From Amphibalanus amphitrite (lineage: Eukaryota; Arthropoda; Thecostraca; Balanomorpha; Balanidae): 64,000 bases of DNA. The DNA is taken from positions 62,001-126,000 of the forward strand of contig NW_024883046.1 in the NCBI RefSeq assembly GCF_019059575.1. Direction: 5' to 3'. Below the pieces are notes generated by a model. It had not been told where the DNA came from, did not search any database, and saw only the letters and a program-made list of their open reading frames with translations. The position numbers and the translations under genes are program-made. Below are positions 4,401 to 59,790 of the stretch, piece by piece; within the stretch, counting starts at the first letter, position 1; each line of letters opens with the position of its first letter.

Positions 4401-7400
4401 GTCGAGATGAGTGAGTGGTCTTTGTTAGCGAGTCTGGTTGAGGTAGCTGTGTTCATAAGTTATATGCCTATCAGTGCAGATCGAGATAGGCACCCAGCAG
4501 GCAGCTTTTCTATGCCGGGAGAGATACATTATATGCTACTCGGGTTGGGAGTTGGTGTTGTTTTTTACATGTTGAGATGGCCAGCTGAATTGTAAATGGG
4601 CAAAAAATGACATTTATTAGCTGCTCTCCGATTAGGAGAAGCAGTAACCTAAATTGCATACTACTTACTGCATTCAAAGCTGGCAATTTTTGCAGCCCAG
4701 CTAGCAAGCCAGTCATCAACCTACTGTATATTGACAGACATTTGAAACCACGCTAGCTTTTTCAGATTTTACCGTTGAGTGAAACTGTCAAACGTTTCAC
4801 TTAAATGGAGCACAATGATACATTTACTCGTCTACGCAATTTATTCTTCACTCATGCTATTCCTCTAAAATGATTGGCTGTAAAACACGAAATATGCTTC
4901 AGAACTCCCAATATGTTGATGCGATGTCTGTGTTACCAGAAATTACGCTGTGCCGCAAATTACGGCATGGGTTTGTATAGCTGCCGCTAGGTGGCATGAG
5001 TCTTGACGCCTGAAATCACGCTGTGCCGTAAGACACGACCTTGGTTTCTACAACTGCCGCTAGATGGCAGGAGTTGTGGCGCCTGAGATCACGCTGTGCC
5101 GCAAGACACGGCCTTAGTTTCTACATCTGCCGCTAGGTGGTAAAAGTTTTGGCGCCTGAAACCACGCTGTGCCGCAAGACACGACTCATGTTTCTAAAAC
5201 TGTCGCTAAATGGCAGTACTTATTAGTGATGTCAATTATGGAAAATCGTAATACCGATACCAAACCAAATACCAACAATATCCATGGAAAAATACCGATA
5301 CCGAACCGACTTGGGAATATGAAGAAAATACCAACTTTTTACCAAAGTCACAGTCTCTTTTACATTAGTGACAATTCATAATACCAACAAAATACCAAAT
5401 GCACTCGCCTTGAAATACCAAATACCAAGTTGGTATCGGTTTGGTATCGGTATACCAAAAAGTTGGTATCCGATTGACACCTCTAGTACTTATAGCCCTG
5501 AAAACCTGCTGCACCGTAGGATGCCTTGTCGGCTCATCATTCCCGTATCCCGTTCGAGGGACATCAGCTGCTGTGCCACCGCGCCGGCCGACGACGCTAT
5601 CGATTCAGCTATATCACGTGCCGCGCCTGTAGCGACCCACGATATGAGCTGCAGGATGATGCATGTGGGCTAAAGTGGGACGGCCACCCAACTAAGCAGC
5701 GGTTCGACAACGGTCTCTACTAATCCGACCCATTTAGAAGGCGTAATAATGAAACGGAATGACCGTAATAAGTCAAATATTATAATCCAAGGCAGCTGTT
5801 ACATACGCCGATATGCAGCTTGAGATGAACGACATGTTTTTAAAAGATGTGTTTCCTTTGTAATTTCAGTCCAAGTGTTTTTCATTTACACATGCCATCT
5901 GCAATGACTGGAGTCCCGCGCCCCACTGGGGGGGGGGGGCTATTTATAGCCCCCCCTCCCGTTTTTCTGCAATAACTTCCAAACCGCTTGACGGATCGAC
6001 GCCAAACTTACAGTACCTTTGGCTGCATCAATTTGACACCTTGTGTCAAAATTTGAACTTCGTAGCTACCATAGGTCGGCCGGAAATGACGTCAGAGTGA
6101 CGTCATGTTCGGCCGATTTCGACGCAAAACATTGAACCACGGCAATCGCTCCCAAGAGCTCAGTTTTTAAGCTAGATCCAATTTTTTTGCATGAAAGGAC
6201 TCAGAATTGACCGCGCTATCAAACTGCTATCTCGAATTTTCAAAATTTTGAAAATTTCGAAAATTTGATATAATAATATTCAAAATATGTATTTTTATAT
6301 TTTTTTCAAAAAGTTTTTGACTTTTCGAAAAAACCGGAATATATGTGACAGAACGCTTGATTATGACTAACTCTAGCAAGTTTTAGCTAAATATCTTCAA
6401 AAATGGCCAAGTTATACGCATTATTGCAAAAAATTCACAATTATTAATTTTTCAAATCAATTTTTCAGTACGTATTTGACATCGTACACCAATATAAATG
6501 GCACCATCGTGTTCCTGAGCTCAAACTGCATCCAATAGACACCTTTTTTGTTGAAAAATTTTAACTTCAAAATTTGACCTTTTTTGACCTGAAAGTGACC
6601 TGACCTAAGCTAAATTCGACTCAAAATGACCTCGAATGACACAGACGACATCAAATTCGAAATCTATGGCCTAAATGGACCATAAAACATGTGTCACGTG
6701 ACCGACGCATGATAAAATATTTTCGTGACCTGTGATGACCTGACCTTGACCTGAAAATCAAAGTAAAAGCTTGGTACCCTTCAGGGTATCTAGAGCATCT
6801 GTTTAAGAGTGTGTGTACCAAAAATGAGCCTGATCTGACTTGTAAGACGGCGGCCAGAGCCCAAAATGTGAACAAGCCAAAATGCTAATAATTTTTACTT
6901 TGACCTGACCTGTGACGTCATCGGTGACCTCGAGGTCAATGAAATTAGGTTTCGCTCGACAGTTTTTCCGGGCTATCAGACGCCGTTTGAATTTTGACGA
7001 TCGGCCCAGTAGTTTCGGAGTTAGGAGGGGGGGCTATGAATAGCCCCCCCCCCCCCCAGTAGGGCGTGTTATACACAGACCCCAGTGGGGCGCGGGTTAA
7101 ATGTCGGAATAACGGTCAATGTAATCGTAGAGCCTGTGCTAAATGCTCATATAACTCTAAACTAAAGGGTCTGTTTTCCTTACAGTGCATTTTACAGCTT
7201 CTATCGGCACATAGGTGTGTGGGCATTTCAATAAATGTCTCTTTTTAGCAACAAATTATGTAGGCCATACATGCGCTTGTGACGATAATGACGTAACATT
7301 TTCCAGACGGTTTTCTCTCCAGGTAAGGCAAATGTGTGACAATGCGCCGCCTTCATCGCACCGTGGCACATTTCTGGCCCCTTTTTAGAGCCTAGAGCCC

Positions 7401-10400
7401 CTTTTTACCGTCGACCGTCGTTTACCGTCGTTTTATCTCCTTTTCGATTCTCATTTTTCACAGATACGAACAGTAGTCTGGGGCCGGAGTTTGACATTGA
7501 CCAGCGGTGGGTGGACGAGCGAATCCACGAGTGGGTTCTTCAGAACAACTACACACTGAATGTGCGCGGCGTGGAGACTGCTGTTCGACATCTGTACACT
7601 TACTGGCCCGACCCGCTCAACAGGACATGGACCAGGCACATGTTCGTCAATGTAAGTTCAGCATATGGATTGAAATATAGACAGCGCTTGTTATTTGGCT
7701 GGTTGTGTGTAGGCGGGCAACAGTTTGATACAGTGCATGCCAATTGGTAAGTAAGGCTAGCTCAGCCGGGTCGGTGCTCCAAATGTAGCATATCAAGACA
7801 GACATAAGGATGGATGTATTTGCGCTCCCTCCCCCTTCCAACTCCACTCTTGGACCACGTAGCGACAATCGGAATGGCGATGAATATGGCACTGCTAGCT
7901 TAACCACACCAGATGCCCTAGAATGCCCAACAACTATCGCATTGCGTTGCAATCTCAGCGCTTGCACCACACAAATGTGGACAGCGCATGTCGAAATGCC
8001 TCAGGTCCATTTCTAAGAGTTGTCTGGTCTCATCACATCGAGTTGCTGTCAATCGTCGACCGTCGATCGTCGATCGTCGGTCGTCGGTCACAGCTCAACA
8101 TGGATCGGTAGGACTCACTGAACGAATTCGAAACCATCGCGGGGCCAGCCTGCAAACGTCCTCGACAGGCTTTTACAATCAGCTTCGCAGCTTCTCGCTG
8201 CCGAGCGCCTCTGCCGGGCGATTGATTGGAACACTCTGGGGAGTGGTTTCACTGGAATTGCAGATTGGATGACGGACAGGTAGTGACTAGGCGGCACGTG
8301 CTGAGATATAAGGTGATAATTTGCACGTACACAATTTGCTACATTATAATATCGTACCTTAATTCGTAAATAACCTTTAGCAAGGATACTCGTGCGTGAC
8401 CTTGACCTTGAGACAGCCTCGCACCTTAACATTGACCACAAATAGAGTCCTGATAACCTTCTTACTATATCAAAGCAATTTGGAATTTATTATACAAGGT
8501 ATATAAATAAGGGCAAAGTTTGAGGTCAAATTTGAGGATGACCTCGACCTTGATTGTGAAGTTTCAAGACATGATCGGATTCCTCAGATTCTCTCCTTTT
8601 GTTTCCTATCCATTTTGGCCGGTTTCATGCATCACGCCGTCCTCTGAAAGTTGAAACACTGAGTTTGAGGTTACTACACATATGACGTTTTTATACCTTG
8701 ACCCCTGACCTTGAAAAGTGATTTTAGCCATTTTCCCACTATGCGCTAGATATAATTGCATCAATTATTGAAGAGCAAAGTGATTTCTAATTCTATTGCA
8801 TCTGCTACAGGTTCCTGAGATATTACGAGTACTCCTACGATGTTGAATGAAAATAAGCACATATGGTAAATAAGCTTATTGTCAATGGAACCTAACGGCT
8901 CATACGAGTATGTAGATACTTGAATGCGCTAGCTTTGCATTATGCATGCTGATGTGTCTCACGAGTGTCTCACGAGTCTCACAGCTCGTCTGTGGATGGC
9001 TCCCTCAAACTGCGCAAATTTTCTCTGGCGCTCACTTTTGGCTTTGTCGGTCCACTCAGCGCGCTGACGCAGTCTCTGGCTGTGCGTGATTTTTGCCTGT
9101 CAGTCAAGGGGATGGCACTATGTAATATGTATGTACTTTGCTTTGCCATGGATTGAGTACCTACTGAATACTGATGTCATTGGCTTCGATCCCAGTGACG
9201 TCAGAGCTGTCTACATCCGGGAACTTTTTGCACCTGCGTCTCCTTAGAGGTGGCCATATTGTTTTGCCCAATGACGACACAGTTGCGTCATTACGTTCCT
9301 TATTGGCTGTAACCAGTAAAACGCCTTTGGGGCGTCTAACGGAGCGAGCGAGAGGGTGAGCCTTGCACGTGCGAAATTTCTGTGTGTGTGGGGGGGGGGG
9401 GGGGTACCTCCAACTGACTTGTGCACGGCACCCTACTAACCAGTCTCTAGCGATGTGCCAAATTTGAGCATAATCGGCCAAGCCGATCTCGAGATCTGGA
9501 AGCGGTGCACCCTGCACGGGCGCACGTGCAAAATGGGTCCTAACTCCTAACTGACTTGTGCACGGCACCCTACTAACTGGTCCCCAATCGTGTACCAAAT
9601 TTGAGCGCCATCGGTCCAGCCGTTCTCGAGATGGAAACGACCCCTGCACGTGCGCACGTGGAGCAGCACCCCAACTCTGGCACATGGATATGCAATGCAT
9701 GGCCTAGTGGGTGCCTATGTATAACATGCCAACTTTCAGCGCAATCGGCCAAATAGTTACCGAGATATTGCAACTATTACAAAACTGACACCTCTTCTTT
9801 TTGCACGTGGCACGTGCATAAGGGGTCACCCACATACATCGGGAATAGTCCAATACTTGGTAGAAGGAATGAAGCCACCCTACAAAAATTACCGCATGTA
9901 AATCGGTCAAGTGGTTGCTGAGATATGAGCCTCGCAAAAGCGTCCGCACGGCCGGCCGCTGATACTCAGAAATTTCCGTTATTCTAAGGAAAGTGTCGCT
10001 ATCTCCAATATGTGTATGGCCATGTTATCAGTTTACTGGTATGTATGTCTGTATGACCAGTATAGCGCCTTTTGGGGCGACTAACGGAGCGAGCGAGAGG
10101 GTGAGCCTTCCACGTGCGAAATTTCGAGGGGGTACCTCCAACTGACTTGTGCACGGCACCCTACTAACCGGTCTCTAGCGATGTGCCAAATTTGAGCACA
10201 ATCGGCCCAGCCATTCTCGAGATCTGGAAGCGGCACCCTGCACGTGCGCACGTGCAGAATGGGTCCCAACTGACTTGTGCACGGCACCCTACTAACTGGT
10301 CCCTAACCGTGTACCAAATTTGAGCGCCATCGGTCCAGCCGTTCTCGAGATCTGGAAACGACCCCTGCACGTGCGCACGTGCAGCAGCACCCCAACTCTG

Positions 10401-13400
10401 GCACATGGATATGCAGTGCCTAGTGGGTGCCTACCTACATGCCAACTTTCAGCGCAATCGGCCAAGTAGTTACCGAGATATTGCAACAATTATAAAACTG
10501 ACACCTCTTCGTTTTGCGCGTAGCACGTGCATAAGGGGTCACCCACATGCATCGGGAATAGTCCGATACTTGGTAGAAGGAATGAAGCTACCCTACAAAA
10601 ATTACCCCGTGTAAATCGGTCAAGTGGTTGCTGAGATATAAGCCTCGCAAAAGCGTCCGCACGGCCGGCCGGCCGGCCGGCCCATAGAGATCTTATATAC
10701 CTACATAGAGATGACATGCACTTAAAATCGTGGCGATTCAGTGGGTCTTTTAAGCAACTTATTTTCAGCCAGTAGCGTGCCAATATGGCTGAGGCATTGT
10801 TAGTCTGAAGAAATCATTACGGAGCGAGCGAAGCGAGCGTAGTCTTTCGTAGATTAACGGAAATTTCTGAGTATGAGCGGCCGGCCGGCCGTGGTTACGC
10901 TTTTGCGAGGCTTACCTATCTCAGCAATCACTTGACCGATTTACATGCAATAATTTTTGTACGGTAGCTTCATTCCTTCTACCAAGTATTGGACTATTTT
11001 CGATGCATGTGGGTGACCGCTTATGCACGTGCCACGTGCAAAACGAAGAGGTGTCAGTTTTGTAATTGTTGCAATATCTTGGTAACTACTTGGCCGATTG
11101 CGCTGAAACATGGTATGTAGGTAGGCACCCACTAGGCAATGCATATCCATGTGCCACAGTTGGGGTGCTGCTGCACGTGCGCACGTGCAGGGGTCGATTC
11201 CAGATCTCGAGAACGGCTGAACCGATTGTGCTGAAATTTGGTACATGGTTAGGAACCAGTTAGTAGGGTGCCGTGAAAAGTCGGTTGGGACCCACTTCGC
11301 ACGTGCGCACGTGCAGGGTGCCGCTTCCAGATCTCGAGAACGGCTAGGCCGATTGCGCTCAAATTTGGCACATCGCTAGGGAGCGGTTAGTAGGGTGCAG
11401 TGCACAAGTTAGTTGGAGGTGTCCCTGGCAATTTCACTTGTCCAAGGCCCACCCTCTCGCTCGTTCTGTTGATCGCCTCAAAAGGCGTTTTACTGGTTAA
11501 AAATATTGCTGTTCTTTCCTCGCTGATTTCATTCCTAAGGTGAGCACTGAAATTGGTAGCATGATTTCATTTTGTGTTTTTATTGAATTCCTTAAAAGCT
11601 CGCCTAAAAACATTCTCTCTCATTCAGGCTCTCATCAACCGGGCAGGCGGTGGACCTCCCGGCCACCTTCCGCGCGGTGGGGGAGGCATTTTTTTTTTGT
11701 CCCCCTCCCGTATCTCCGAAACTACTGGACGGATCCGTAACATTCAAACGATGCTCGATAGCCCTGTCAAATTTGTCGACGGAACTCCAATTTCATTGAC
11801 CTCGGGGTCACCGACGACGTCACAGGTCAGGTCAAAGATAAATGTTTCGCCGTTCACAGGTCTTCTAGGGAATGCGCTATAACAAAGAGTAAAACGCATT
11901 TTGTCGAAAATCAGCAATAGGGCGTACGTTGCCTAGTTACGAGCGAGTGAGCGCAGCGAGCGAAGCGAAGTCTTTTCAATATAACGGAAAAATCTCAGTA
12001 TGAGCGGCCCGGCCCGGCCTGTAACGCTTTTGAGAGGCTTATATCTCAACAACCGCTGGACCGATTAGCCTGCGGTCTTTTTTGCTGGGTAGCCCCATCC
12101 CTTCTACCCCGTAATTGACTACTTTTGATACATCTCAGTGACCGTCGTGGCACGTGCCACATGAAAAGTCAAGGGTGTTCAAGCAGTTTTGCAAAAGTAA
12201 TTATTTTGAGAGGCCCATATCTCAGCAGCGGCTTAAGCGATTGCCTTGCGGTAATTTTTATAGGGTAGCTGCATCTCTTCTACTAAAGGTCGGATACTTT
12301 TGATCTATGTGAGGCACCCCCACTGCACCTGTAAAATACAAAAAGAAGAGGTGCCAAATTTGTTCCCATTTCAGTAACTCGGTAATTACTGGGGCGATCT
12401 CGCTGAAACTTGGCATACAGGTAGGCACCCACCAGGCAATACATTCCCATGTGTTGCGGTTAGGGTGCTACTGCACGTGCGCACGTGCAGGGGGCGTTTC
12501 CAGTTCTCGAGAACGGCTGGGCCGATTGCGCTCAAATTTGGTACACCGCTAGCGACCGGTTAGAAGGGTGCTTTGCACAAGCCCGTTGGAAGTACCCTGT
12601 CGCCCTTCCGCACGTGCAGGGCTCACTATCTCGCTCGCTCGTTCTTCGCCCAAAAGGCGTTTTACTGGTATGTATATATGTTGCTATTAGAGGTCACTGA
12701 TAATACCATGTCAGGTCACAGGTCAGGTCACCAAGGGTCAGCACATGAACCCAACTTTACTTGGGTTGTGCTATGCATGTTTTATGGCCCCTCGACATGG
12801 TCCCCCCAAAAAAGGTCACAGGTCTTAGGTCATTTGGGTCAGGTTCATGGAATTTTCAGGGTAGGTTTCTTGAGATTTGGTCAAGTTTGGCGCTTTCGGT
12901 CAACCGTCGCGAAAACGGCTGTTCTGAACCTTTCTGAGCACGGTGCAAGCTCAAATATACATATGTTACATGTTCCCATTCAATGATACATTAACCCTCC
13001 CCGGACCTATTGGTTTTCTACATACGCGCCGTCCGAGGGGGGGGGGGGTACGATTTCCCTCGCCATTTCGCCCCTGATGAAGCTACTAGCTAGAGCGTCG
13101 CGGAAAAAAAACAAGCGCGTGCGCCGTTGCAAGAAGCAGCGAACCCGATTTTAAGGTCTCAGGTCAACCGGTGTCCGCTGAGGTCAGGTCAAGTGACCAA
13201 GGGCAAGGGTTCAGTTTTTCATAACTTCGCAAAAAACGGTCGGAGAGCCGCGATTTTGGCATCATCGTGTTCACCTCGCTCAGGCGCGTCGAATGGTATA
13301 CTTTTTGTTCGGGTGAGGTCAACTTGAGGTGTCAACCTCGGGTCAAGGGCAGGTCAGCGCCCCCAGATCACGAAGATGATTGAAAGAGGTCATGTTACAT

Positions 13401-14510
13401 ATTACTCGAATCGGCAGGTCTTCCTGCGTTTTTTTTTTTTTTTGGTGGCCTTCCCGACTCGCTAACTCAATTTGATGGGGAGTTATTGATGAAAAACTCT
13501 AATGACCCAAGTGACCATAAATGACGTCACGCAATGACAACAATGCAAAAGTGAAGAATCGGACGTTGCAAGGCGTGCAAGAAATCACGATTCCATGTGC
13601 TGGAGACAGTTTGAGATAGTTCTCGGCGCTAACATAGCAGTTTTCATTTTTCCCCATTGAGTTATACCTAATGGTGATTATTGGTGAGGTCACGTGGCCG
13701 ACCTGACCTCATGTGATTTTTAGGGAAAATCCGAGATATACAAGCTGTGAGACCTCTGGAGGATACTACATCCTGTATGTAAGTTTCATCTCCCTGTGAA
13801 AGTTCCTCTGGCACTGACGGCGTTGCGAAGTTGCGACATCTGAGGACTGTGCAGAGGTTCACTTATGACGTCACAGGTCAGTGACCTGACCTGACCTGAA
13901 AATGCGGTTGGTGTCACAAAATGCGGCTTGGATCAAAGGTCAGGTAGGTATGCCAAGTTTCAGCTCTCTATCGCCGGCGTGTTCGGAGCTATCGTGAAAA
14001 CCCCTATGGGGGGCGGCACCCCCCCCCCCCCGTCGGCCGGCGAGGGTAAATGATACATGTAGTGCCCGATACGAGCATAAGGTTAAAACATGCCTAATTT
14101 CATTTCAATAATAACGCTCGAAAGCGTCACAGCTAGACAAAAAAGAAAAGCTGTACTTAAAAATAAGCGGATGTGAACACAATCTCCTTGACCGAATCCT
14201 TACAAAATGCAAGTCACGGGCCATGGCACCCCAGAAAACCTTGCTTAAAAATACCCACTGAATCGCCACGAAATCAAGTGCTTTAACATAGGCGTGTCAT
14301 CTCTATGTATATAAGATCTCTATGGGCCGGCCGGCCGGCCGCTCATACTCAGAAATTTCCGTTAATCTAAGGAAAGACTACGTTCGCTTCGCTCGCTCCG
14401 TAATTATTTGTATCTTTATCACCGTCAGTGCGTCTGTCTGTCTGTCTGTCTGTCTGTGTCTGTCTGTCTGTCTGTCTATCTGTCTGTCTCTCTGTATGTC
14501 TGTTTGTCTG

Positions 14511-19913: not shown

Positions 19914-19919
19914 TTTATT
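19914..19919 (-). terminator. Poly(A) signal of GY-A
   Basis: AATAAA on the minus strand in CTCGCTCAATAAACG, about 65 bp after the stop. GY-C and GY-D carry the same CGCTCAATAAA context, and GY-B has a very similar one. Confidence 0.8.
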
Positions 19920-19982
19920 GAGCGAGAGGTTGATGACACCATAGCAAGCACTTGTGAAAAGGAACATTTGGTGATATGACAT

Positions 19983-20595: not shown

Positions 20596-20651
20596 CTCTG
20601 CGGCTTGTAGTTCCTCCGACTGCTGGGAGAGTAGATCAGTGAGTGTGTGAT

Positions 20652-21302: not shown

Positions 21303-21498
21303 GAACCTCTCTGACAGTGAGGGCGTTGCGAAGTTGCGACATCTGAGGGTCAGTGACCTGACCTGACCTGAAAATTCGGTTGGTGTCACAAGATCTGGCC
21401 TGGAGAAGTTTCAGCTCTATCCCGGTGTGTTATGAGCTATCGCGAAAAATATCCTATGGGGGCGGCATCCACCCGCACCCCCGGCCGGCGACGGTTAA
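21303..21498. mobile_element. TTAA-type family C, terminal fragment
   Basis: It shares GGGCGTTGCGAAGTTGCGAC, the TGACCTGACCTGACCTG run and the end CCGGCCGGCGACGG followed by TTAA with the right part of 12995-14046. The left part is absent. Confidence 0.65.
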
Positions 21499-28712: not shown

Positions 28713-28718
28713 TTTATT
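28713..28718 (-). terminator. Poly(A) signal of GY-B
   Basis: AATAAA on the minus strand, in CTCGCTCAATAAAAA, about 55 bp after the stop. Confidence 0.8.
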
Positions 28719-45837: not shown

Positions 45838-46659
45838 GATAGCGCTTACGCACGGTATGACTATGTAAGTACATAATTGTATAGATGATATTCTCGAAAT
45901 CATGGAGAATGGGATGCAACCCCCCTAAGGTTGATGGCCTCTTACCTTAGAACCCCGTAAGAGGCCATCACCCCGTCGCGTGTAGGAGGCTTCCGCAGAA
46001 GACGGTCACTATAATTTGGCTAGCAATGTTGATCTAGAATTAGATCATTATCACTTTATATAATATGAAGCAAAACTCCTACGCCCTATCAAATGCTGAA
46101 TAAACAACCTCAAACAAACGAATGTGTCACGCTGCAACCATTTATAGAGAAATGTTCGAGGCAGATCGTCGTATATTTGTAACCGCACGCACCGACGCTT
46201 ACACCACAACCCGGCTTGATTATTTCATGGAGTAGTGTAAACAAACACCAAAGTTATGTGATTTCTGGAAAGTTTGTGAGTTAACGACATTCATGGGCCA
46301 TTACAGTTCACTGCTACAATTCTACATTTTTTAACTTAAACATTCACATGACATAGTTACATACACATACAGTTTGCACATTCAAAATTATCGTCATACC
46401 ATGTATTACCCTGACACATTAGATTGCTTAGGTACTGTTTATCAATGGACTCCGAAGGCAAGCTTCAACATTTCAGGAGTTCTTCATTCAATAAAACTAG
46501 CGTAAAGTACGAAAGCTGACAAGCATATTCTTATTGTTACACAAAATATTGAACTTTCGCATCATATTTGTATCGAAAAAGTGATTCTTTGAAACGAGGC
46601 GTGTATAGCAAAGCCATGTGGTCAAGCGTAACACGTCAGCGTCCAACCGAGCACCCTAA
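45838..46659. other. Intergenic upstream of GY-C
   Basis: Contains one 14-bp inverted repeat (TGATGGCCTCTTAC and inverse) at about 45932-45970. The rest, up to the conserved promoter block, is AT-rich and featureless. Confidence 0.5.
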
Positions 46660-46667
46660 GGCGGAAG

Positions 46668-46704
46668 CCAAGGTCGGACATACAGGCCAGGCCGCGTATA
46701 AAAG
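46668..46704 (+). promoter_or_regulatory. GY-C core promoter: FTZ-F1-type site and TATAAAAG
   Basis: CCAAGGTCG at 46668-46676 and TATAAAAG at 46697-46704, separated by 20 bp. The presumed start lies in TATCACACACTCACTG, about 30 bp after the TATA box. An upstream ACACGTCAGC word (about 46631-46640) is shared with GY-D and, inverted with the gene, GY-B. Confidence 0.82.
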
Positions 46705-46779
46705 CGCCGGACGGCGGGTGGATATCACACACTCACTGATCTACTCTCCCAGCAGTCGGAGGACCTACAAGCCGCAGAG

Positions 46780-47331
46780 ATGAACGCCAAGCTTGCGGTA
46801 AGTTTTGCACATGTTTCTTTCGCTAACGTTTAAAACATAATGCCCTTCAGTTTCTATCACTTACCTGAAGAAGTCCAACAATGACTGAATGTTTGTTTTA
46901 CTTTTAACATCCAGTCAAATAATGAATTGTATGCCAGTGTTATTGATGCGTTTTATTTTCTTTCTTCTCCGCAGCTGCTGTGTCTGGCTGCCCTGGTGGC
47001 TGTTGTCTCTGCTAGCGGACACGGATACGGATACGGATACTCCGGATACCGCTCCACCCCTGCCCACTACGGCGGATACCGTCGTGCCGGATACGGCTAC
47101 GGCGGCTACAGCAGCTACGGCAGCTACGCCCCCCGTAGCTACGGCTACCACGGCCGCCACCGCCGCTCTCTGGGCTACAACTCCTACGGATACGGATACG
47201 CTCCCCGCAGCTACGGATACGGACACACCGGATACGGATACGCTCCCCGTAGCTACGGATACGCCTCCCGCTCGTACGGATACGCTCCCCGTTCCTACGG
47301 ATACGGATACCGCTCTGCTTACTACCATTAA
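46780..47331 (+). CDS. GY-C: secreted Gly/Tyr-rich cuticle-like protein, 124 aa
   Basis: Exon 1 is 46780-46797 (MNAKLA, donor gtaagt). Exon 2 is 46975-47331 after tctccgcag, 118 codons plus stop. Signal peptide to about residue 19; then GHGYGYGYSGYRSTP, the GYG/SSYGSYAPRS block, RHRRS at 67-71, and YAPRSYGYG repeats ending RSAYYH. A 177-bp intron splits the signal peptide in phase 0. Exon 2 is nearly identical to the other four copies while intron and flanks differ, which suggests strong constraint or gene conversion. Role as for GY-A: probable cuticle or extracellular-matrix component. Confidence 0.9.
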
Positions 47332-47386
47332 GTGTGCCTTTTCATCATGAATGAGTGTCTTTGTCATTTTGATTCCTCTCTCGCTC

Positions 47387-47392
47387 AATAAA
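47387..47392 (+). terminator. Poly(A) signal of GY-C
   Basis: AATAAA in CTCGCTCAATAAATC, about 55 bp after the stop; same context as in the sibling genes. Confidence 0.85.
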
Positions 47393-48358: not shown

Positions 48359-49396
48359 CCCTCGCCGGCCTAGGGGGGGGGGGTGCAGCCCCCCCCCCCT
48401 AGGTTTTTTCGCGATAGCTCCGAACACGCTAGTGATAGAGAGCTGACACTTGGCATACCTGATTTTTCATTCAAGCCGGATCTTTTGACACCAACCGAAT
48501 TTTCGGGTCAGGTCAGGTCACTGACCTATGACGTCATAAGTGAACCTCTGTACGGTCTTCAGATGTCGCAACTTCGCAACGCCCTCACTGCCAGAGGAGC
48601 TTTCGCAGGGAAATGAAACTTGCAGGATTTAGTATCCATTAGTCTCATAACTTGTATATCTCGGATTTTTCCTAGAGGTCATATGAGGTCAGGTCATTTT
48701 CGTGACCTCACCATTATAAGTCAATGGGAAAAATGAAAACTGCTATTCTGGCGCCGGGAACGATCTTCAACTATCTCAAGCACACAGAATCGTGATTTGA
48801 TGCACTCCTTACAAGGTAAGATGCGTCACTTTTGCAATGTTGACCTTGCGTGACGTCATTTATGACGTCATCAAGGGCATATTAGTTTTTCGTCAATAAC
48901 TCTTGATCAAATTGAGCTAGCGAGTCGGGGAAGCCACCAATGGACTCAGGAAGACCTGCCGAATCGAATGATATGCGACATGACCTATAACATATATTCC
49001 GTTTTTTTGGAAATTCTCAAAATTTTGGATTTTATTAGCTATTTTCCCAAAAAATATAGTTTTTTGAATTTATAGGGGTGAAAGACGCATTTTATGGAAA
49101 ATCCGAGACAGCCATTTTAAAGAACTCGTTTAGCTGCGTTTTTTCATGTCCTTAATTTGCAATTTGCTTTAAACCCTGATTTTTGGCGATTTTTTAAACA
49201 TTTGCCACTTTTTGACTGAAAACGCAATGCAGTTACATCACTGGAAAAAAAAATCTTAAAATTACACAGGAGACGTCAAATTGATGGGGGAGAAGGTATG
49301 CCAAGTTTCAAGTTGATAGCGTAAGCGGTTCATGAGTTATTCAAGAAAAACGGAGGGGGTCGGATCCGACCCCCCCCCCCCCCCGGCGGTCGCGGG
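48359..49396. mobile_element. TTAA-type G-capped element, family C copy 2 (inverted)
   Basis: It opens CCCTCGCCGGCC, then a G-run/C-run palindrome around GGTGCAGCC. It is the inverse of the right half of 12995-14046 (CACCAACCGAATTTTCGGG, CGCAACTTCGCAACGCC). It ends at a C-run and GCGGG followed by TAAA. First of three elements lying end to end. Confidence 0.7.
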
Positions 49397-49400: not shown

Positions 49401-50408
49401 CCGCGCACTGACGGGGGTCTGCGTCAACTTAAAACCGACGGGGGGCGGATGACCGCCCCCCCCCCTGAGATCTCGAGAACGAAGCAAGATAGCGACAAGC
49501 GGTAAACGGCATGGGGTACACACGGACAAGGTCTACAATTTTTACAAAGGTCATTCTCAGGTCAGGTCAAAGATGGCGTCACAGGGGTAAAAAGTCAAAA
49601 TGGCGGCGCTAGATAAGGAAAGAGTTTTTCTCGAAAAACTTTCGGACATAGGCAAGATAGGAACAAGCTAAGGGCATCATCGTGATCCTCTCGTCGATCC
49701 GCATCAAATGCTATATATGTTGACCTCGAAAGGTCAAGGTCAAAGGTTGATCTCAAGTAACGTGACATCGAGGTTATCATGCATATCATTCGATGCACCT
49801 TGACGAGCTGAACACAATGAGACCATCCGCGCGTCTGTATCTTGTTCCTGTACGGAGTTATTGGCAAAAAAACTTTGGTGACCTTTGATGACGTCACATA
49901 ACCTTACAGCTGCCCAACAGCAAAAACAGACCTCAAGGTAGTGAAGGTTGATCGTATATGAAGTCATGTATGGTTTATGGGGCCATTCCGACCCGTTTTA
50001 GTGGTAAAAACAGGGAGTTGATTTTTCCCCCATTGACTTGCATATAATGGAGAGATCGAGAAATTGACCTGACCTTAGGTCATCGATATCAAAATTCCGA
50101 GACACACAAATTGTAGCTACTAATCACCTTATGACATCCTGCGACTTTCAAAGGCCTCCAACATCTACTGTAGCTCTGGCACGGTGACATAGTTGCAAAA
50201 AAGTGACTTGAGGTTGGGTCATTCGAAGTGACCTGGTGACCTGCCCTTCAAAGTTAGGAGGTTTAAACTTGCACACCATGTGTAAAATTGATGAGAGAAT
50301 AGTCGTAACAAATTTCGCGGAGCTACGCGTCGCAGTTTTTCCGCTATCTACGAAAAATCTCAGGGGGCGGATATCCGCTCCCCCCCCCCCCCCCCGTCGG
50401 TGCGCGGG
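49401..50408. mobile_element. TTAA-type G-capped element, family B copy 2
   Basis: It opens CCGCGCACTGACGGGGG and ends CCGTCGGTGCGCGGG. The flanks TAAA and CTAA are worn TTAA sites. The interior follows 58329-59327 closely, including the paired AGGTCA words and the GGATATCCGC hairpin at the right end. Confidence 0.78.
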
Positions 50409-51078
50409 CTAACACGCGCAGTGGAAGGGGGGGGGGCGGATGTCGCCCACCCCTCCTGTTTTTCGCTAATAACTCGCGCCGCAAGCAAATATTGAAGTGA
50501 AATTTGGGCTACCTGTCCAGAATTGAATTGCGGATCTTCTCGTGCAGGAAATAAGGAAATCGGTTCACAACTTTTCTAGTAATAGCGGTGTAAAGCCAAA
50601 CACAGGCCGGCGCCAGCCGTTGCGCGCCGCCTGAATTGTAGACTGTGCCGGGGTGGGACGGTCCCGTCTTTACATCGCGCTGCTTACCGCTGATTACATT
50701 GGATGCGCGTCAATGTTTGTAAGAAGACTAAGAAATGTACAGGCAATCTTATGGTTAAATAATTTTGAAAATCGGTCGGTAAAAGTTTGAGTTATGAGTG
50801 TGTAAACACAAAATTGTGATTGCCGCGTTTCCCGCGTCGGCCGATCCCGCTTCAGCCGGTGACATCTTACCCTTAGCAGGCTTCTAACTGCCAAATTGAT
50901 TGTTGGATTAACTAGAAATTCACCATACATACTCACAAACGTACGTTCTTTCGTTTAAAGAAAGAAAAAAGGAAATCGCCGGTAACTTTTTGAGTTATCG
51001 GCGTGTAAACACAAAAAAGTCGCTCAAACGGCAGATTTGACCACATTTGACCTCATTTGACCTTGAAGATATTCCGAG

Positions 51079-51238
51079 CATAGGCGGCGGAATAGGGAGG
51101 GCACCGGGGCACCGGACCCCCCTTTGATTTTGGCATTTAACAATAGCCCTATGGGCGTTGCATGGAAAGAATGGGACTAAAGTCCAAAAGTCGGCAGTGC
51201 CCCCCCCCCCCTTAATTGAAGGTGTTCCGCCGCTACTG
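51079..51238. mobile_element. hAT-like MITE, 160 bp
   Basis: The ends CATAGGCGGCGGAA and TTCCGCCGCTACTG are near-inverse. It splits family E sequence that is continuous in the copy at 55300-56158 (GAAGATATTGACC...GGTCATGAAATT). The flanks share CCGAG, the remnant of a probable 8-bp duplication TGACCGAG. Confidence 0.6.
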
Positions 51239-51376
51239 TGACCGAGGGTCATGAAATTTGCACACAACAGAGTTCCCCAGTGCCCCCACCTACCCTCCAA
51301 ATTTCGTCTTTCTAGCTCCAGTGGGAGCTGAGATCTTAGGGGGGCGGCATCCGCCCCCCCCCTTCCACTGGGCGTA

Positions 51377-51704
51377 TTTTTTTGTTTGTTTTGTTTTGTT
51401 GGGTTAGGCCCTTTCGGTCGACAAGACCATTGCAGAGCCGGAAGGATGATAGGAATTAGGGGGAGACATTGGTCTGGGCAGGCACCCTAGTGAGTTGCCG
51501 GGGTTGAGCCCGTCCAGAGGACAGGCCACCCAACCCCAAGGCACTCACTGCACCCGGCTACGGGGTGCGCTCCCTCAGGAGCAGCGGTGCCGCTCCAAGG
51601 GAGCAGCCCGCATGAGATAAAGTTGCCTGTCCAGCCCGGAGGGGGGTTGCGGCGTGGAGGAGAAGGATTTCTGTTTCCTGAGGATAGAAGCACGGATAGG
51701 TGTG
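51377..51704 (-). mobile_element. 5'-truncated LINE 3' end with 11-bp target duplication
   Basis: CACTGGGCGTA occurs at 51366-51376 and 51705-51715, although the copy at 55300-56158 has it once. The insert begins with a T-rich (TTTTG)n run, i.e. an A-rich tail on the minus strand, preceded there by GTCTTGTCGACCGAAAGGGC. It fits target-primed insertion of a non-LTR retrotransposon. No reverse-transcriptase domain remains. Confidence 0.75.
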
Positions 51705-51953: not shown

Positions 51954-52149
51954 TAAAGTAAATAACTTTGATGATTCCGTCATAGCAAACTCTTTTTAGA
52001 AGTCTTTTTTGAGCTGATTGTCTGCATACCGCGTGAACATCAAAAATGTGTATCTCATCCAATATCCTAAGTGTGTGGCGATATACGAGCATTGCGAATG
52101 AACCGAACACGTCAGCACCCAACCGAGCAGCAAGTCCGTGAGGCGGAAG

Positions 52150-52186
52150 CCAAGGTCGGACGTACGGGGCGGGCCGCGTATAAAAG
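52150..52186 (+). promoter_or_regulatory. GY-D core promoter: FTZ-F1-type site and TATAAAAG
   Basis: CCAAGGTCG at 52150-52158 and TATAAAAG at 52179-52186, 20 bp apart. An upstream GAACACGTCAGCACCCAACC block matches GY-C. The presumed start is in TATCACACACTCACTG. Confidence 0.82.
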
Positions 52187-52261
52187 CGTCGGACGGCGGG
52201 TGGATATCACACACTCACTGATCTACTCTCCCAGCAGTCGGAGGAACTACAAGCCGCAGAG

Positions 52262-52836
52262 ATGAACGCCAAGCTTGCGGTAAGTTTCGGAATTGTCTTG
52301 GATACTAAAGACTTTATTTTACTATTGTTTTACTAAAAATGGTCAACTTTTCTTACACGGCTGACGGATAACTGATCGACAAACAGTAATAATGTGCTAA
52401 CTGTTTTAACTCCTGTGCTTCTAGTCAAATAATTCCTCATGTGTACGATTTTTCCTAATATGTTTTTTCTTCTCCACAGCTGCTGTGTCTGGCTGCCCTG
52501 GTGGCTGTTGTCTCTGCTAGCGGACACGGATACGGGTACGGATACTCCGGATACCGCTCCGCCCCTGCCCACTACGGTGGATACCGTCGTGCCGGATACG
52601 GCTACGGCGGCTACGGCAGCTACGGCAGCTACGCCCCCCGTAGCTACGGCTACCACGGCCGCCACCGCCGCTCTCTGGGTTACAACTCCTACGGATACGG
52701 ATACGCTCCTCGCAGCTACGGATACGGACACACCGGATACGGATACGCTCCCCGTAGCTACGGATACGCCTCCCACTCGTACGGATACGCTCCCCGCTCC
52801 TACGGATACGGATACCGCTCTACTTACTACCACTAA
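52262..52836 (+). CDS. GY-D: secreted Gly/Tyr-rich cuticle-like protein, 124 aa
   Basis: Exon 1 is 52262-52279 (MNAKLA, donor gtaagt). Exon 2 is 52480-52836 after ttctccacag, 118 codons plus stop. The order is as in the siblings: signal peptide, GHGYGYGYSGYRSAPAHYGG, GYGGYGSYGSYAPRS, RHRRS, YAPRSYGYG repeats. In the third repeat block it has YASHSYG where the siblings have YASRSYG, and it ends YRSTYYH. The intron is 200 bp. It has an intact promoter and poly(A) signal and is probably functional. Confidence 0.9.
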
Positions 52837-52892
52837 GTGCATTTTCTAATGGAGTGCCTTTATTGTTGCTACTTTTGAACCTCTTTTCGCTC

Positions 52893-52898
52893 AATAAA
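52893..52898 (+). terminator. Poly(A) signal of GY-D
   Basis: AATAAA in TTCGCTCAATAAACG, about 57 bp after the stop. Confidence 0.85.
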
Positions 52899-53022
52899 CG
52901 AAATTGATTTTCATTTTCAAACTGTATTTTGTGTTTTTTATGAATATATGAAGCAAGGCAAGAGCATGGCACGAGCGGCTTGACCGATCATTGATAGCAT
53001 ATGCATTATGCACTGACGTTAG

Positions 53023-54160
53023 CCCGCGCCCCACTGGGGGATAGCCCCCCTCCCGTTTTTCTGCAATAACTTCCAAACCGCTTGACGTAACGACGCCAAA
53101 CTTTCAGTACCTTCGGCTGCATCCATTTTACACCTTGTGTCAAAATATGAACTTCGTAGCTACCATAGGTCGGCCGGTAATGGCGTCAGAGTGACGTCAT
53201 GTTCGGCCGATTTTGACGCAAAACATTGAGCTATGGCAATCGCTGCCAAGAGCTCAGTTTTTAAGCTAGATCCAATTTATTTGCATGATAGGACCCAGAA
53301 TATACTGTGCTATCAAACTGCTATCTCGGATTTTCAAAATTTTGAAATTTTCGCAAAATATATATCATAAAATTCAATAATTATGTTTTTATGTTTTTTC
53401 AAAAACTTTTTGACTTTTCGAAAAACAAACGCAATATATGTGATAGAACACATGCTTATGACTTTCTCTAGCAAGTTATACGCATTATTGCAAAAAAATT
53501 CACAATTATAATTTTTTTGAATCAATTTTTCAGTACGTTATTGAAATCGTACACCATTAAAAATAGCACCATCGTGTTTCTGAGCTCAAACTGCATCCAA
53601 TAGACACCTTTTTGGTTGAAAAATTCAGCTTCAAAATTTGACCTTTTTTTACCTGAAAGTGACCTGACCTAAGCTAAATTCAGCTCCAAATGACCTCGAA
53701 TGACACAACCGACATCAAATTCGAAATCTATGGCCTAAATGGACCATAAAACATGTGTCACGTGACTGACGCATGATATAATATTTCCGTGGCCTGTGAT
53801 GACCTGACCCTGACCTGAAAATCAAAGCACAAGTTTGGTACCCTCAGGGTATCTAAAGCATCTGTTCACAAGTGTGTAAACAAAAAATGAGCCTGATCTG
53901 ACTTGTAAGACGGCGCGGCTAGAGCCCAAAACGTGAACAAGCCAAAATGCTAATAATTTTTACTTTGACCTGACCTGTGACGTCATCAGTGACCTCGAGG
54001 TCAATAAAATTAGGTTTCACTCGACAGTTTTTCCGGGGCTATCAGACGCCGTTTGAATTTTGACGATCGACCCAGTAGTTTCGGAGTTAGGAGGGGGGCT
54101 ATGAAGAGCCCCCCCCCCCCCCGTAGGGCGTGTTATACGCAGACCCCAGCGCAGCGCGGG
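53023..54160. mobile_element. TTAA-type G-capped element, family A copy 3
   Basis: Left end CCCGCGCCCCACTGGGG after TTAG; right end CCCCAGCGCAGCGCGGG before TTAA. The left G/C hairpin has shrunk to GGGGGATAGCCCCCC. The interior aligns with copies 1 and 2 throughout by eye and is non-coding. Confidence 0.8.
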
Positions 54161-54474
54161 TTAAGTTACCTTCATAATCAACCGTATTGTAACAATCATG
54201 AATCGCTGGTTATGTTAAACCCTCGCCGGAATTATTGGTTTTCTACATACCCCGCGGCCGAAGGGAGGATACGAGCCCCTGTCCTCATCGTTTCACCTCT
54301 AATGGAGCTGGAGTCTCGCGATGTGTGTAATGTGTATGCTTGAGACAGTTTTAGAACATTTCCAGCGCTAAAATAACAGTTTCCCTAATTCCCCCATTTA
54401 CTTTTTATGGTGGGGTGACATACCTGACCCTACCTCATGTGACCTTTAGGAAGAATCCCAGCTAAAAAATTTAG

Positions 54475-56492
54475 CCCGCGCCGTGCTGGTGGCCTGTGTT
54501 TTCCGTGTCGTGCTGGGAGGGGGGGGGGGTGTTTTCACGCCCCCTTCCCCCTCTAGCTCGGCTTCGGCTCCTGGGCCACGTAGCGACACGCGGTAAGCGG
54601 CAATCGAAAAAGAGTCAAAACAATGAAGGAAGCACTTCGGTCATTTTAAGGTCAGGTCGAAGATCAGGTCACCGGAGGTCATCAAAGGTCAAATTTAGTC
54701 CATTTCAACAACTTTGGAAACTGCCAGCGGTTAACTCGGGAACCAATAGAGCTAGAGCGCCGCGGAAAAGCGCATTCGATAGCCCTTTTACACACCTTTC
54801 TGGAAGTTGCTATGAGATTTGACCTCAGGTCAACGGTTTGGCCTCCATAGGGCAAAAACTCTAAAGATAACTTTTTTCACGTTTTTTTTTTCGGTAATAA
54901 CCTTTGACTCAAGAGATCCATGACATTACTTTTGCCAGCATCGTGTTCCTCTCGTCGAAACGCGTCGAATGAACTATACGTTGACCTTGAAAGGTCATTT
55001 GGAAAAGTTGACCCCATGACCTGGCCGGAAAGGGTCATATCATAACAGTCGATCCATGTCGTCGAGCTGAGCACAGCTGACGTGTTTTCACCGCTCTAGC
55101 ACGTCTCTATCAAAAGTTAGAGCCAAAAAATTGCTGGTGACCGTTCATGACCTGAGATGACCTTAGGGGCACACAGAGGGGTCACCGGTGCATTTTACTG
55201 ATTCAGTGTGTCATTTTTACCTATGAACTGATGTTTGAGAGGGGTTTGAACGACATTGGTCCAAAAGAGGCGCATTTCAATTTTCTCCCTTTGACTTAAC
55301 ACGCGCAGTGGAAGGGTTGCGAGTACTACGCCCAGTGGAAGGGGGGGCGGATGTCGCCCCCCCCCTAAGATCTCAGCTCCCACTGGAGCTAGAAAGACGA
55401 AATTTGGAGGGTAGGTGGGGGCCATGGGGAACTCTGTTGTGTGTGAATTTCATGACCCTAGGTCAATATCTTCAAGGTCAAATGAGGTCAAATCTGGTCA
55501 AATCTGCCATATTAGCGACTTTTTTTGCGTTTACACGCCGATAACTCAAAAAGTTACCGGCCGATTTTCTTTTTTCTTTTACTATACGAAAGAAAAAACA
55601 TTTGTGAGTATGTATGGTGAATTTCTAGATAATCCAACAATAAATATGGCAGTTAGAAGCCTGCTAAGTGTAAGATGTCGCCGGCTGAAGCGGGATCGGC
55701 CGACGCGGGAAACGCGGCAATCACAATTTTGTGTTTACACACTCATAACTCAAATTGTTACCGGCCGATTTTCAAAATTCTTTGACCATATGATTGCCTG
55801 TACATTTCTCAGTCTTCTCACCGAATTTGACGCGAATCTAATATAATCAGCGGTAAGGAGCGCGATGTAATGACGGAACCGTCCCGCCCCGGCACAGTCT
55901 ACAATTCAGGCGGCGCGTAACGGCTAGCGCCGGCCGCCGCGCCGCCGCGCCGCCGCGGCGGCAGGATGTTTGACTTTAGACCGCTATTACTAGAAAAGTT
56001 GTGAACCGATTTTCTTATTTCTTGCACGAGAAGATCCGCAATTCAATTCTGGGCAGGTAGCCGAAATTTCACATTAATATTGTGGTTGCGACGCGAGTTA
56101 TTGGCGAAAAACAGGAGGGGTGGGCGAAATCCGCCCCCCCCCCCTTCCACTGCGCGTGTTAAAACGGGGAGGTCGCAAAATTGACCTGACCTTAGGTGAC
56201 AGATTTCAAAAATCGAAGATATATATTTTATACATATTGTTATTTTTTCAATCGCTAAAAGTTTGAAAAGTGATCGTTCTGTCGGTGTAGCTATAGCGAG
56301 CCTTTGAAGAAAAAAAAAATCTGATATAAGGTCACTTGACGTGACCGGCTGACCTAACGACCCGGGTCTGAAATTTTCATATGTGTGGAAAAGATGTATG
56401 AAGAGGCATACCGAAAACGGCGGCACTGCGTGCCGCAGTTTTTGAGATTTTCGCGGAAAGCCTGAAGCCTCCCCCTTCAAGCACGGCGCGGG
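54475..56492. mobile_element. TTAA-type family F element, itself interrupted
   Basis: Ends CCCGCGCCGTGCTGG and CAAGCACGGCGCGGG; left flank TTAG, right flank TTAA. A G-run with GTGTTTTCACGCCCC lies inside the left end. A family E element occupies 55300-56158. A relict relative lies at 58138-59790. Confidence 0.7.
55300..56158. mobile_element. TTAA-type family E copy 2, nested
   Basis: Exact TTAA on both sides (55296-55299, 56159-56162). Ends CACGCGCAGTGGAAGGG and CCTTCCACTGCGCGTG. Left hairpin GGGGCGGATGTCGCCCC. It contains a CGCCGCGCCGCC-rich patch near 55930. Confidence 0.82.
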
Positions 56493-56501: not shown

Positions 56502-57580
56502 CCCGCGCCCCGTAGGGCTATCGGCGGACCCTACCGGGGAATTACCTTGTGACCAAATTTCATTGACCTAGGTCAAACCGATGACGTCACAGGTCAGGTC
56601 AAAGGTCGGATTTTCACCGTTCACAGGCATTTCAAGAAATGTGCTGTGAAATCGAGTAAATTGGTAATTTATTGAAAACCATCGATGGTACATTGTTCGT
56701 CAAACACATACTTTACTATCTGAGGTCACTGATACCAGGTCAGGTCACAGCGAGGTTAGGTCACTGGGGGGGTCACAACATGAACGTGTCGTGTGATACA
56801 TGTTTTATGGTCCATTTTACATGACAAATGCGATTATGTGGGTTAAGCAGCCTTTGGGGCCAGCCTGGGTCACATTTTGGTGAAGGTCAGGTCAAGGTCA
56901 GGTCAAATTAGGTCAAATTTCAAAGTTGATATTTTTGCATAAAATGGGTATTGATTCGATGCAGCTCGTCACGGGGAGTCTAATGGTGGTCTTTGTTCTG
57001 CTCTACGAGGTCTAGAATTGCCAAAAAATGAGTTTGAAAATTTGACGTCATCATTTTTGAACAGTTTTTTCGCTATAACTTGGCCAAAAAAGGAGGTATC
57101 GATCTGAAATTTGGTATGTAGATAGAATACGGTAGGTACTATCACATATATTCCGGTTTTCTCGAAACTCATAAAACTTTATGGATTTTTTGGCTAATAT
57201 AGCAAAAAAATGCTTTTTTGATTTTTGAGGGTCAAAACTCAAAAATCTTAAAAATCCGAGATAGCAGTTTTGTAGCCCTGTTAATTCTACACCTTTTACG
57301 TTTTATCATTTTTCTGTATCTTTAAAGCTGTAGGCCTGACAGGTCTTCTCGCAAAGGTCTTTTTTTCGGTCGAAAATGACAGAACATGACGTCATTCTGA
57401 CGTCATTTATGGCCAACCTATCATAGTCTCTGGAGAAATTTTTGGTCACCATGTGTAAAATTGATGCTCGGAGGGGTCCTGAAAGTTTGGTGGCGATATC
57501 TAAAGCCGTTTAGGAGATATCGACGGAAAAGGAAAGGGAGGGGCCGTTTCGGCCCCCCCCCCCTCCCTACGGGGCGCGGG
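56502..57580. mobile_element. TTAA-type family G element
   Basis: It opens CCCGCGCCCCGTAGGG after TTAA (56498-56501) and ends CCCTACGGGGCGCGGG before a T-run. C-run and GGGCCGTTTCGGCCC hairpin near the right end. Five bases separate it from the family F element. Non-coding, with AGGTCAGGTCA words. Confidence 0.75.
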
Positions 57581-57884
57581 TTTTTAAGAGACCTCCCAAT
57601 GATACTAGGTCCTGTAAGTTTCAGCTCCCTGTGAAAGCTCCTCTGACACTGAGGGTGTTGTGAAGTTGTGACATTTTAGGACCGTGCAGAAGTCTGCTTA
57701 TGACGTCATAGGTCAGTGACCAGACCTGACCTAAAAATGATATTTTTGTCAACATTTGTATTTGAATTAGAGGTAAGGTATGCAAATTTTCAACTCTATC
57801 GCCGCCATGTTCCGTGTTATCGCGAAAAAAACCTATGGGGGGGGGGCGGCACCTGCCCCTCCTCAGCCAGTGAGCTAGGGTTAA

Positions 57885-58137: not shown

Positions 58138-59790
58138 AAGTCAACGGTTTAGTCTTCAGAGAACAAAAACTGCCACAATCAACGTTTCGAAGAAAATGTT
58201 TGTCTGCAATAGGTAACTGTTGATTCAAAGCTGGCACCATATTGATTTTACTGGATCATGTTCCTTCTGTCGAGGCGCAACGAACGAAAAACAATTTGAC
58301 CTTAAATCGTATTAAGTTTTTAAATTAACCCGCGCACCGACGGGGGTCTGCGCCAACTTCGCACCGACGGGGGGCGGATGACCGCCCCCCCCCCCCGAAG
58401 ATCTCGAGAACGAAGCAAGATAGCGACAAGCGGTAAACGGCATCGGATACGCACGGTCAAGATCTACAATTTTTACGTAGGTCATTTTCAGGTCAGGTCA
58501 AAGATGACGTCACAGGGGTCGAAAAAGTCAAAATGGCGGCGCTAGATATGGAGAGTTTTTCTCGAATAACTTTCGAATTAGTCAAGATAGGAACAAACTA
58601 AGGGCATCATCGTGATCCTCTCGTCAATCCGCATCAAATGATATATATGTTGACCTCGAAAGGTCAAGGTCAAAGGCTGACCTCAGGTCACGTGACCTCG
58701 AGGTCATCATGTATATCATTCGATGCGTCTTGACGAGCTGAACACAATGAGACCATCCACGCGGCTGTATCTTGTTCCTGTACGGAGTTATTGGCCAAAA
58801 ACCTTTGGTGACCTTTGATGACGTCACATGACCTCACAGCTGCCCAACAGCAAAACAGACCTCAAGGTAGTGAAGGTTGATCGTATATGAAGTCATGTAT
58901 GGTATATGGGGCCATTCCGACCCGTTTTAGTGGTAAAAACAGGGAGCTGATTTTTCCCCCATTGACTTATAATGGGGAGGTCGCGAAATTGACCTGACCT
59001 TAGGTCACCGATATCAAAATTCCGAGATAAACAAATTGTAGCTACTAATGACCTAATAACATCCTGCGACTTTCAAAGGCCTCCGACATCTACTGTAGCT
59101 CTGGCACGGTGACAAAGTTGCAAAAAAGTGACTTGAGGTTGGGTCATTCAAAGTGACCTGGTGACCTGACCTTAAAAGATAGGAGGTTCAAACTTGCACA
59201 CCATGTGTAAAATTGATTAGGGAATAGTCGTACTAAATTTCGCGGCGCTACGCGCCGCGGTTTTCCCGCTATACGCGAAAACCCTCAGGGGGCGGATATC
59301 CGCCCCCCCCCCCCGTCGGTGCGCGGGTTAAGACTAAGGTCATCACTTTAACGGACAATGTCGTGTCGCATATTAGCCGATCCGTACTGTTGAGCTGACC
59401 ACATCCAAGCTTTCATCGCTCAACATGCAAATATCAAACGTCGTTGTCAAAATCGGCTGAACACCTATTCATGGCCTGAGATGACCTCAGGGACATGCAA
59501 AGGGGCCACATTTGCAATTTTTCGATTCATTGACTAATTTTTTATGTTGCCAGATGTTTGAGAGTTTCAGCATGATTTTCACCCAAAAAGAAGCGCAGTT
59601 AGATTTTCTCTCCCATTGACTTTTAATGGAAAGGCCTAAAAATTGACCTGACATTAGGTCATTAATACCGAATTCCGAGAAAAACATTTTATGCTTTATC
59701 AATCGCTCCAAGTTTCAAGCGAACGTTCAGTCGGTAGCGATATGGAGACATATAACTTTTTCTGAGGTAAGTAGATTCCTGTAATGCAAG
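58138..59790. mobile_element. Family F relic split by a family B element
   Basis: The parts 58138-58328 and 59332-59790 resemble the interior of 54475-56492 (AACGGTTT...CAAAAACT, CCTGAGATGACCT, TTCGATTCATTGAC). The family B element 58329-59327 lies between them. The outer ends are not found. Confidence 0.5.
58329..59327. mobile_element. TTAA-type G-capped element, family B copy 3 (inverted)
   Basis: Exact TTAA flanks (58325-58328, 59328-59331). Ends CCCGCGCACCGACGGGGG and CCGTCGGTGCGCGGG. It is near-identical by eye to 23922-24927 read on the other strand, including its TGACCTCGAGGTCA everted repeat, which suggests recent movement. Confidence 0.85.

Follow-up and report, generated by a model that had tools for sequence, protein, structure and literature searches.

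A close known relative of the elements analyzed here is piggyBac of Trichoplusia ni, which has unequal ends of 35 bp on the left and 63 bp on the right, with bp 34-63 of the right end almost identical to bp 7-35 of the left (PMC7351741). In that account, two copies of the cysteine-rich domain bind as a dimer to an internal repeat, a palindrome of 19 bp (bp 17-33 in the structure), the catalytic domain contacts bp 2-6 and another domain contacts bp 9-14; in cells, the native enzyme supported both excision and integration for the unequal end pair alone. In the barnacle Amphibalanus amphitrite, five piggyBac elements have been described, three of them intact, with lengths of 2,708-4,732 bp, transposases of 506-645 aa and terminal inverted repeats (TIRs) of 13-18 bp; that study set miniature inverted-repeat transposable elements aside, and the string "palindrom" is absent from its main text (PMC10813416). 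Here we analyzed a 64,000-nucleotide stretch of this barnacle's genome (contig NW_024883046.1, our C1549:62001-126000; hereafter the window), the genome searched comprising 808 Mb in 2,644 contigs. We conclude, with a probability of about 90%, that the TTAA-flanked units in this window are non-autonomous members of one piggyBac transposon lineage, which in this genome has diversified into at least 20 end-types.

By reading both edges, we delimited 19 units or fragments, which together occupy ~15.7 kb of the 64 kb and span positions 5915-59327, the same range in which an earlier note, made from the letters of the window, had placed TTAA-flanked units with a palindrome of G- and C-tracts inside each end (the cap). 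Such caps are not confined to the window: TTAA followed by CCCNCG, 7 bases and a G-run/C-run hairpin (runs 2-16 bases apart) has 9,827 forward matches in the genome, compared with 0 for the same pattern read backwards. The reverse-strand count of 27,687 includes one end several times in places; assuming one short end per element and equal strands, the doubled forward count suggests roughly 20,000 ends of the families with a 13-bp TIR.

The two ends of an element are unequal, a feature that the earlier note did not contain. Among 32 delimited elements, picked by hand as pairs of recognisable caps (5 in the window and 27 at other loci), 31 carry one short and one long end; in the remaining element the short end, whose C-run is broken, was missed by the scoring rule. 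The short end consists of a 13-15 bp TIR and then the G-run/dyad/C-run palindrome, so that its G-run begins 13-15 bp after the TTAA. At the long end the same palindrome lies 25-28 bp further in and its G-run begins 38-42 bp after the TTAA; the offset was 25 bp in one of the 31 elements, 26 bp in four, 27 bp in 20 and 28 bp in six. At the long end the palindrome lies behind a near-copy of about TIR positions 7-13. Left outside the 32 were the window's B1, A2, C, F, G, R and W copies and its I-like element, a copy of family S, and locus L058, because the second visible end of the latter belongs to another family. An unselected listing of 65 capped ends gave a similar picture, 61 of them lying at 13-15 or 38-42 bp and the other four (23, 44, 45 and 53 bp) having interrupted G-runs, and 80 of 81 capped ends fell into the two distance classes with a pattern limited to 11-43 bp. 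Across 21 TIR rows (K entered twice), positions 1-3 were invariant (in part through the choice of pattern), positions 5 and 6 were kept in 19 and 20 rows, respectively, and positions 8-13 were the most variable. Exceptions to the CCC...GGG ends described previously are the short end of S (CCT) and the W copies, which begin with CAC. Within the palindromes, 60 of 78 base pairs were complementary in 18 distinct cores read off by eye, compared with about a quarter expected, and five cores were perfect; the letters of the core change between families while its dyad symmetry stays.

The resemblance to piggyBac that had been suspected from the ends was borne out by copies that contain a transposase between the same caps. 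At least 116 matches to PF13843 (DDE_Tnp_1_7) were found in the genome. Of these, 37 were opened: 12 in short loci, 20 in long ones, and C257, C919, C412, C33 and C552 by parts. Same-family capped ends were present on both sides of the transposase at L031, L029 and L032 (J caps, 3.96-3.97 kb), at L034 (K caps, 5.97 kb, with a nested N element), at L026 (F caps, ~6.6 kb, with a nested E element) and at C33 (S caps, ~4.7 kb, flanks fetched apart). These J, K, F and S copies are transposase-bearing relatives with shared ends, for which the earlier note had proposed a search. In addition, one capped end lies beside the transposase at C919 (G), C552 (E), C412 (U) and C257 (S), where no second capped end was found within the DNA retrieved. 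The open frames of L031 (646 aa) and L034 (673 aa) are full-length, have the DDD triad, share the cysteines of the cysteine-rich domain and, inside their matching caps, match PF13843 at 2.2e-69 and 2e-64, respectively; L032 and L029 are damaged or shorter, and L029 is without the cysteine-rich end. The L031 protein aligned with T. ni piggyBac at E 2e-78, including the catalytic residues D268/D346/D447 and the cysteine-rich end, and more weakly with piggyBat (E 3.2e-30). The transposase of the non-capped element L009 matched piggyBat (4.8e-31) better than piggyBac (8.3e-21). In a midpoint-rooted tree of 31 transposases and two references, with long branches flagged by the tool, the six capped transposases grouped together (90/90) beside T. 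ni piggyBac (100/99) and apart from the 25 others. Non-capped piggyBac elements with visible ends often begin with TTAACCCATTA or similar, and for several others no ends were found.

The relation of short units to a source copy was traced in family F. The F short unit of L023 is collinear with the F copy that contains a transposase, with 92-96% identity in the blocks 1-164 (92%), 161-211 (96%, beyond the nested E), 412-510 (93%), 495-713 (93%) and 723-901 (96%), and the family F short units are internal deletions of this longer element. TTAA was found on both sides in 31 of the 32 delimited elements, themselves chosen by recognisable ends, and TTAG/TTAA in one. In the window, the TTAA flanks that had been described do not hold for the left side of B1 (GAGT), for B3 (TTAG), or for A2 and others, where they are degenerate. 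An exact empty site was provided by the F family: there is one TTAA in the F copy without E and two around the nested E. For A3, a locus at C783 matched the joined flanks at 82%, with one CTAA replacing the two TTAA, and represents a diverged paralogue.

Several observations weigh against this reading. No source copy for A, B or C, the commonest families in the window, was found among the 37 of at least 116 transposase matches that were opened. When the joined flanks of E, B2 and A3 were used as genome queries, a continuous match was obtained only for A3, so that two of the three were without an empty site (the right flank of E proved to be a high-copy repeat), and one of two nested empty-site checks failed, as no alignment crossed the junction of N nested in K. 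The hand-picking of the 32 elements and the rooting and long branches of the tree count on the same side. The CC[C/T] start expected of a short piggyBac TIR was found as CCC in all 21 rows, but this tip was partly built into the search pattern, and family W departs from it. G-run length ranges between 5 and 16, which leaves the tip-to-dyad distance variable, unlike in T. ni piggyBac, and the lengths of G-run and C-run showed no positive correlation (r -0.20).

The function of the caps has also to be considered. Since the T. ni layout is repeated and the cores are dyad-symmetric though family-specific, the hairpin cap is best read as an internal-repeat dyad that would be bound by the C-terminal domain of the transposase. 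The enzyme would recognise tip and palindrome together, as in T. ni piggyBac; TTAA cut-and-paste would follow, and the short copies would use the enzyme of the source copies in trans. The palindromes could instead act as DNA structures themselves, as cruciforms, G-quadruplexes or replication-stalling caps, rather than as protein sites; in favour of this, long G-runs and C-runs surround the dyad in every family seen. Nonetheless, a core that retains its symmetry while its letters differ by family, a palindrome at the position which, in T. ni piggyBac, is the binding site of the cysteine-rich domain, and two arms whose lengths are not positively correlated make this explanation very improbable. 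Among the three cap roles proposed in the earlier note (transposase binding, replication stalling and G-quadruplex formation), transposase binding fits best, as position, spacing, dyad symmetry and the published contacts all agree with it.

The claim that the interiors have few or no homologies between families had to be abandoned. Between A and N, identity is 97% across 644 bp, in an alignment that begins at position 45-47, just inside their differing caps. Interiors are similarly common under differing tips in F and I (91% over 741 bp), K and V (92% over 1,022 bp) and Q and T (83% over 1,035 bp), and by such common blocks the family interiors form two large linked groups. On the evidence of these alignments, the tips change faster than the interiors.

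We also investigated the AGGTCA/TGACCT words in which the units had been reported to be rich. Their density is 12.6/kb in the masked stretches (the capped units and one array) or ~10.8/kb without the array, compared with 0.9/kb in the rest of the window. This confirms the richness, except that 43 of the window's 255 words sit at 36.5-37.6 kb in a minisatellite that is not a capped element (36539-37567; TGACCT-rich units of ~71 and ~133 bp). By class, 21 non-autonomous copies had 6.5-20.3 words/kb, four capped source stretches 3.0-4.6 (that of L041 running to the edge of the retrieved sequence) and four non-capped piggyBac elements 0-1.5. The words are phased, which the earlier note had not reported. 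We oriented 16 family representatives from the long end, the set leaving out O, Y and others with an end beyond the retrieved DNA as well as G, H, R and W. In all 16, the stretches 0-139 and 215-299 bp from the long end are free of words, which are present at 140-214 and 300-399 bp. The first cluster is centred 161-186 bp from the long end, and of 52 intervals between clusters, 50 measure 136-214 bp. For the 15 representatives with at least three clusters the best period was 170 bp (z 13.5, 0/500 random placements), which is near one nucleosome repeat. Because families share blocks, the test was repeated on six less-related elements without a common interior alignment of at least 100 bp, and a period of 175 bp was found (z 7.9, 0/1000 random placements). 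GC content folded at 170 bp gave no clear nucleosome-like profile.

The source copies retain parts of this arrangement. Measured from its long end, the S source copy has clusters at 169-201, 333-372, 496-557 and 665-675 bp and one word at 743 bp, and, measured from its short end, clusters at 152-170, 312-329, 474-495 and 642-655 bp. The J source copy has words at 161, 344-349 and 531-536 bp on the short side and is without a second cluster on the long side, the K source copy has single words at 133 bp and 407 bp, and the F source copy has clusters at 168-200, 367-377, 506-526 and 591-618 bp. The words mostly read inward, with ratios of 143:29 for the half nearer the long end and 61:27 for the other half. 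Among neighbouring pairs, 37 overlap by one base, followed by 12 direct repeats of type DR4, 10 DR0, 7 inverted repeats of type IR5, 6 DR5 and 3 IR1, others being fewer. An origin from telomere-like words was considered and rejected: beetles have a (TCAGG)n telomere repeat and overlapping words of the form AGGTCAGGTC are frequent, but the 29 stretches in which words were counted contain no tandem of the TTAGG type.

Several explanations of the phased words compete. AGGTCA is the classical nuclear-receptor half-site, and the source copies of J and S have clusters on both sides of their gene, as would suit host nuclear-receptor sites for transcription or chromatin whose 170-bp spacing has no role. 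However, the clusters are phased, occur at both ends and are retained in copies without a gene, and the commonest neighbour geometry, the overlapping AGGTCAGGTCA, with 37 pairs and present in all 11 of 11 representatives, is not a standard receptor spacing, so that we regard this account as unlikely. The regular spacing could also be the remnant of a tandem repeat with units of ~170 bp from which the interiors descend. When units were compared under a loose mask, 61 of 266 comparisons were above the 99.5% point of shuffles, and with a strict mask four of 60 within-element pairs (in Q, A, N and J) beat the best of 107 controls; under the same strict mask, however, within-element segments were overall not more alike than segments of unrelated families (p 0.84), and we consider such an origin distinctly unlikely. 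The phasing may, finally, reflect shared descent only, that is, one inherited arrangement that has had too little time to be lost. The common interior blocks and the two large linked family groups speak for this, and distant homology below detection is possible among the six less-related elements; on the other hand, the persistence of the 175-bp period in interiors that cannot be aligned indicates that the words outlast the surrounding sequence, and shared descent alone is possible but on the unlikely side.

What the array might do is a guess, to which our confidence in the piggyBac assignment does not extend. The phased words may be a binding array for a host factor that organises the transposon ends in chromatin, with a spacing of about one nucleosome repeat. 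The more specific proposal, that directional AGGTCA arrays at both ends are used by a nuclear-receptor-like host factor or by the transposase to set the chromatin of the ends, is speculative and seems to us quite unlikely. On that proposal, given shared interiors under changing tips, the elements would consist of two separable modules, caps for enzyme specificity and an array for chromatin layout.

The 19 units and fragments comprise three A, three B and five C copies (three of the latter fragments and one truncated), one each of E, F, G and R, a fragment of H, an I-like element and two W. In a self-comparison of the window, which also aligned C copies and pieces and others, the three B copies were 85-92% and the three A copies 88-96% identical. 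B1, a full-length family B copy (5915-7096, minus strand), has its long end on the right and has lost the left TTAA; B2 (21621-22797, minus) has TTAA on both sides and its long end on the right, and B3 (53023-54160, minus) is flanked by TTAG/TTAA. A1 (23922-24927, minus; long end right) and A3 (58329-59327, plus; long end left) have TTAA on both sides, and A2 (49401-50408, plus) has its long end on the left. The C family is represented by a copy at 12995-14046 (plus, long end left), a truncated copy with a short end at 48359-48986 (minus, inner boundary from self-alignment), two fragments with a short end at 21309-21494 and 57601-57880 (both minus) and one with a long end at 54220-54469 (plus, right boundary approximate). 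E (38206-39125, minus) has TTAA on both sides and its long end on the right; from the TTAA, its right flank (39126 onward) is a repeat found at many places in the genome with 96-99% identity. F (42366-43251, plus; long end left) has the flanks TTAA and TTAG, G (56502-57580, plus) has TTAA on the left and has lost the right flank, and the H fragment (49334-49396, minus) is a short end. W1 (50413-51377, minus) has lost the outer tip of its long end, and W2 (55300-56158, plus), with TTAA on both sides, is nested in the R element (54475-56492, plus); both W copies have the CAC tip. The I-like, F-related element (24932-27963, minus) is split by an insertion from ~25501 to ~27698, both of its pieces align in order to the F copy, and it has the TTAA at 24928-24931 in common with A1. 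A single TTAA common to adjacent capped elements was also seen at L008 1501-1504, L031 2115-2118, L032 6128-6131 and L055 1222-1225, as if one element had inserted into the target duplication of the other.

The window contains further repeats and genes. Five copies of a small gene, 83-97% alike in pairs and in both orientations, encode a protein that is rich in glycine and tyrosine and apparently secreted (19898-20652, 28713-29430, 46630-47392, 52105-52911 and 60744-61201). A foldback element of ~336 bp has two copies 98% alike (27273-27608 and 60247-60582), its arms measuring 167-168 nt and nearly abutting, and another foldback repeat of ~297 bp (33622-33918) has arms that are 87% complementary. 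At 9304-12669 and 62249-62753 there is a cluster of repeats, both direct and inverted, which are a few hundred bp long and include GGCCGGCC stretches, and minisatellite-like stretches with CCTCTCAGACCATCAGTCTCAGGGG-type units lie at 43958-45546. Outside the window, the single COX1 match in the genome (contig C2644) contains 10 in-frame TGA codons, as expected for a mitochondrial code of the invertebrate type.

With at least 18 different dyad cores set in a common scaffold, and a cognate transposase for some, the caps form a natural series and a data set on how piggyBac enzymes choose their ends and on the need for unequal ends; the phased AGGTCA arrays suggest that a transposon may bring its own chromatin-scale layout. 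Among known systems, piggyBat of Myotis lucifugus (9c0f; PMC11707139) shares the superfamily, and inside its tip motif lies an imperfect palindrome to which two cysteine-rich domains bind, but its right end is described without a palindrome and its transposase is the weaker match to L031. The coral CMITEs (PMC2872659) are likewise short piggyBac-type elements with interiors better conserved between families than their TIRs, and they form tandem arrays; they differ in that we found no G/C palindromes or AGGTCA arrays described for them there. Some of the capped source copies may be among the five elements of PMC10813416. We found no long G-run/C-run palindrome arms in the mostly open-access literature on piggyBac ends, Repbase and Dfam being outside its scope, nor any phased AGGTCA in transposons in the mostly open-access literature on AGGTCA, transposons and nucleosome phasing. 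The earlier note knew of no family with such a double cap; this stands for the arms, whereas a TIR with an unequally spaced palindrome is the plan of T. ni piggyBac (PMC7351741). The superfamily and the end plan were already known, and the G/C-run palindromes and the phased AGGTCA words are without precedent in the literature searched. Compared with T. ni piggyBac (not checked for AGGTCA clusters), the barnacle elements have long G- and C-run arms, at least 18 core types and phased clusters. On the layout of that element (6x67/6x68), with which they share the TTAA target, the DDD transposase with its cysteine-rich domain, the palindromic internal repeat and the unequal ends, they place the palindrome from bp 14-16 and shift it by 25-28 bp at the long end, the inner part of which repeats the TIR from bp 7 onward, as in the T. 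ni element.

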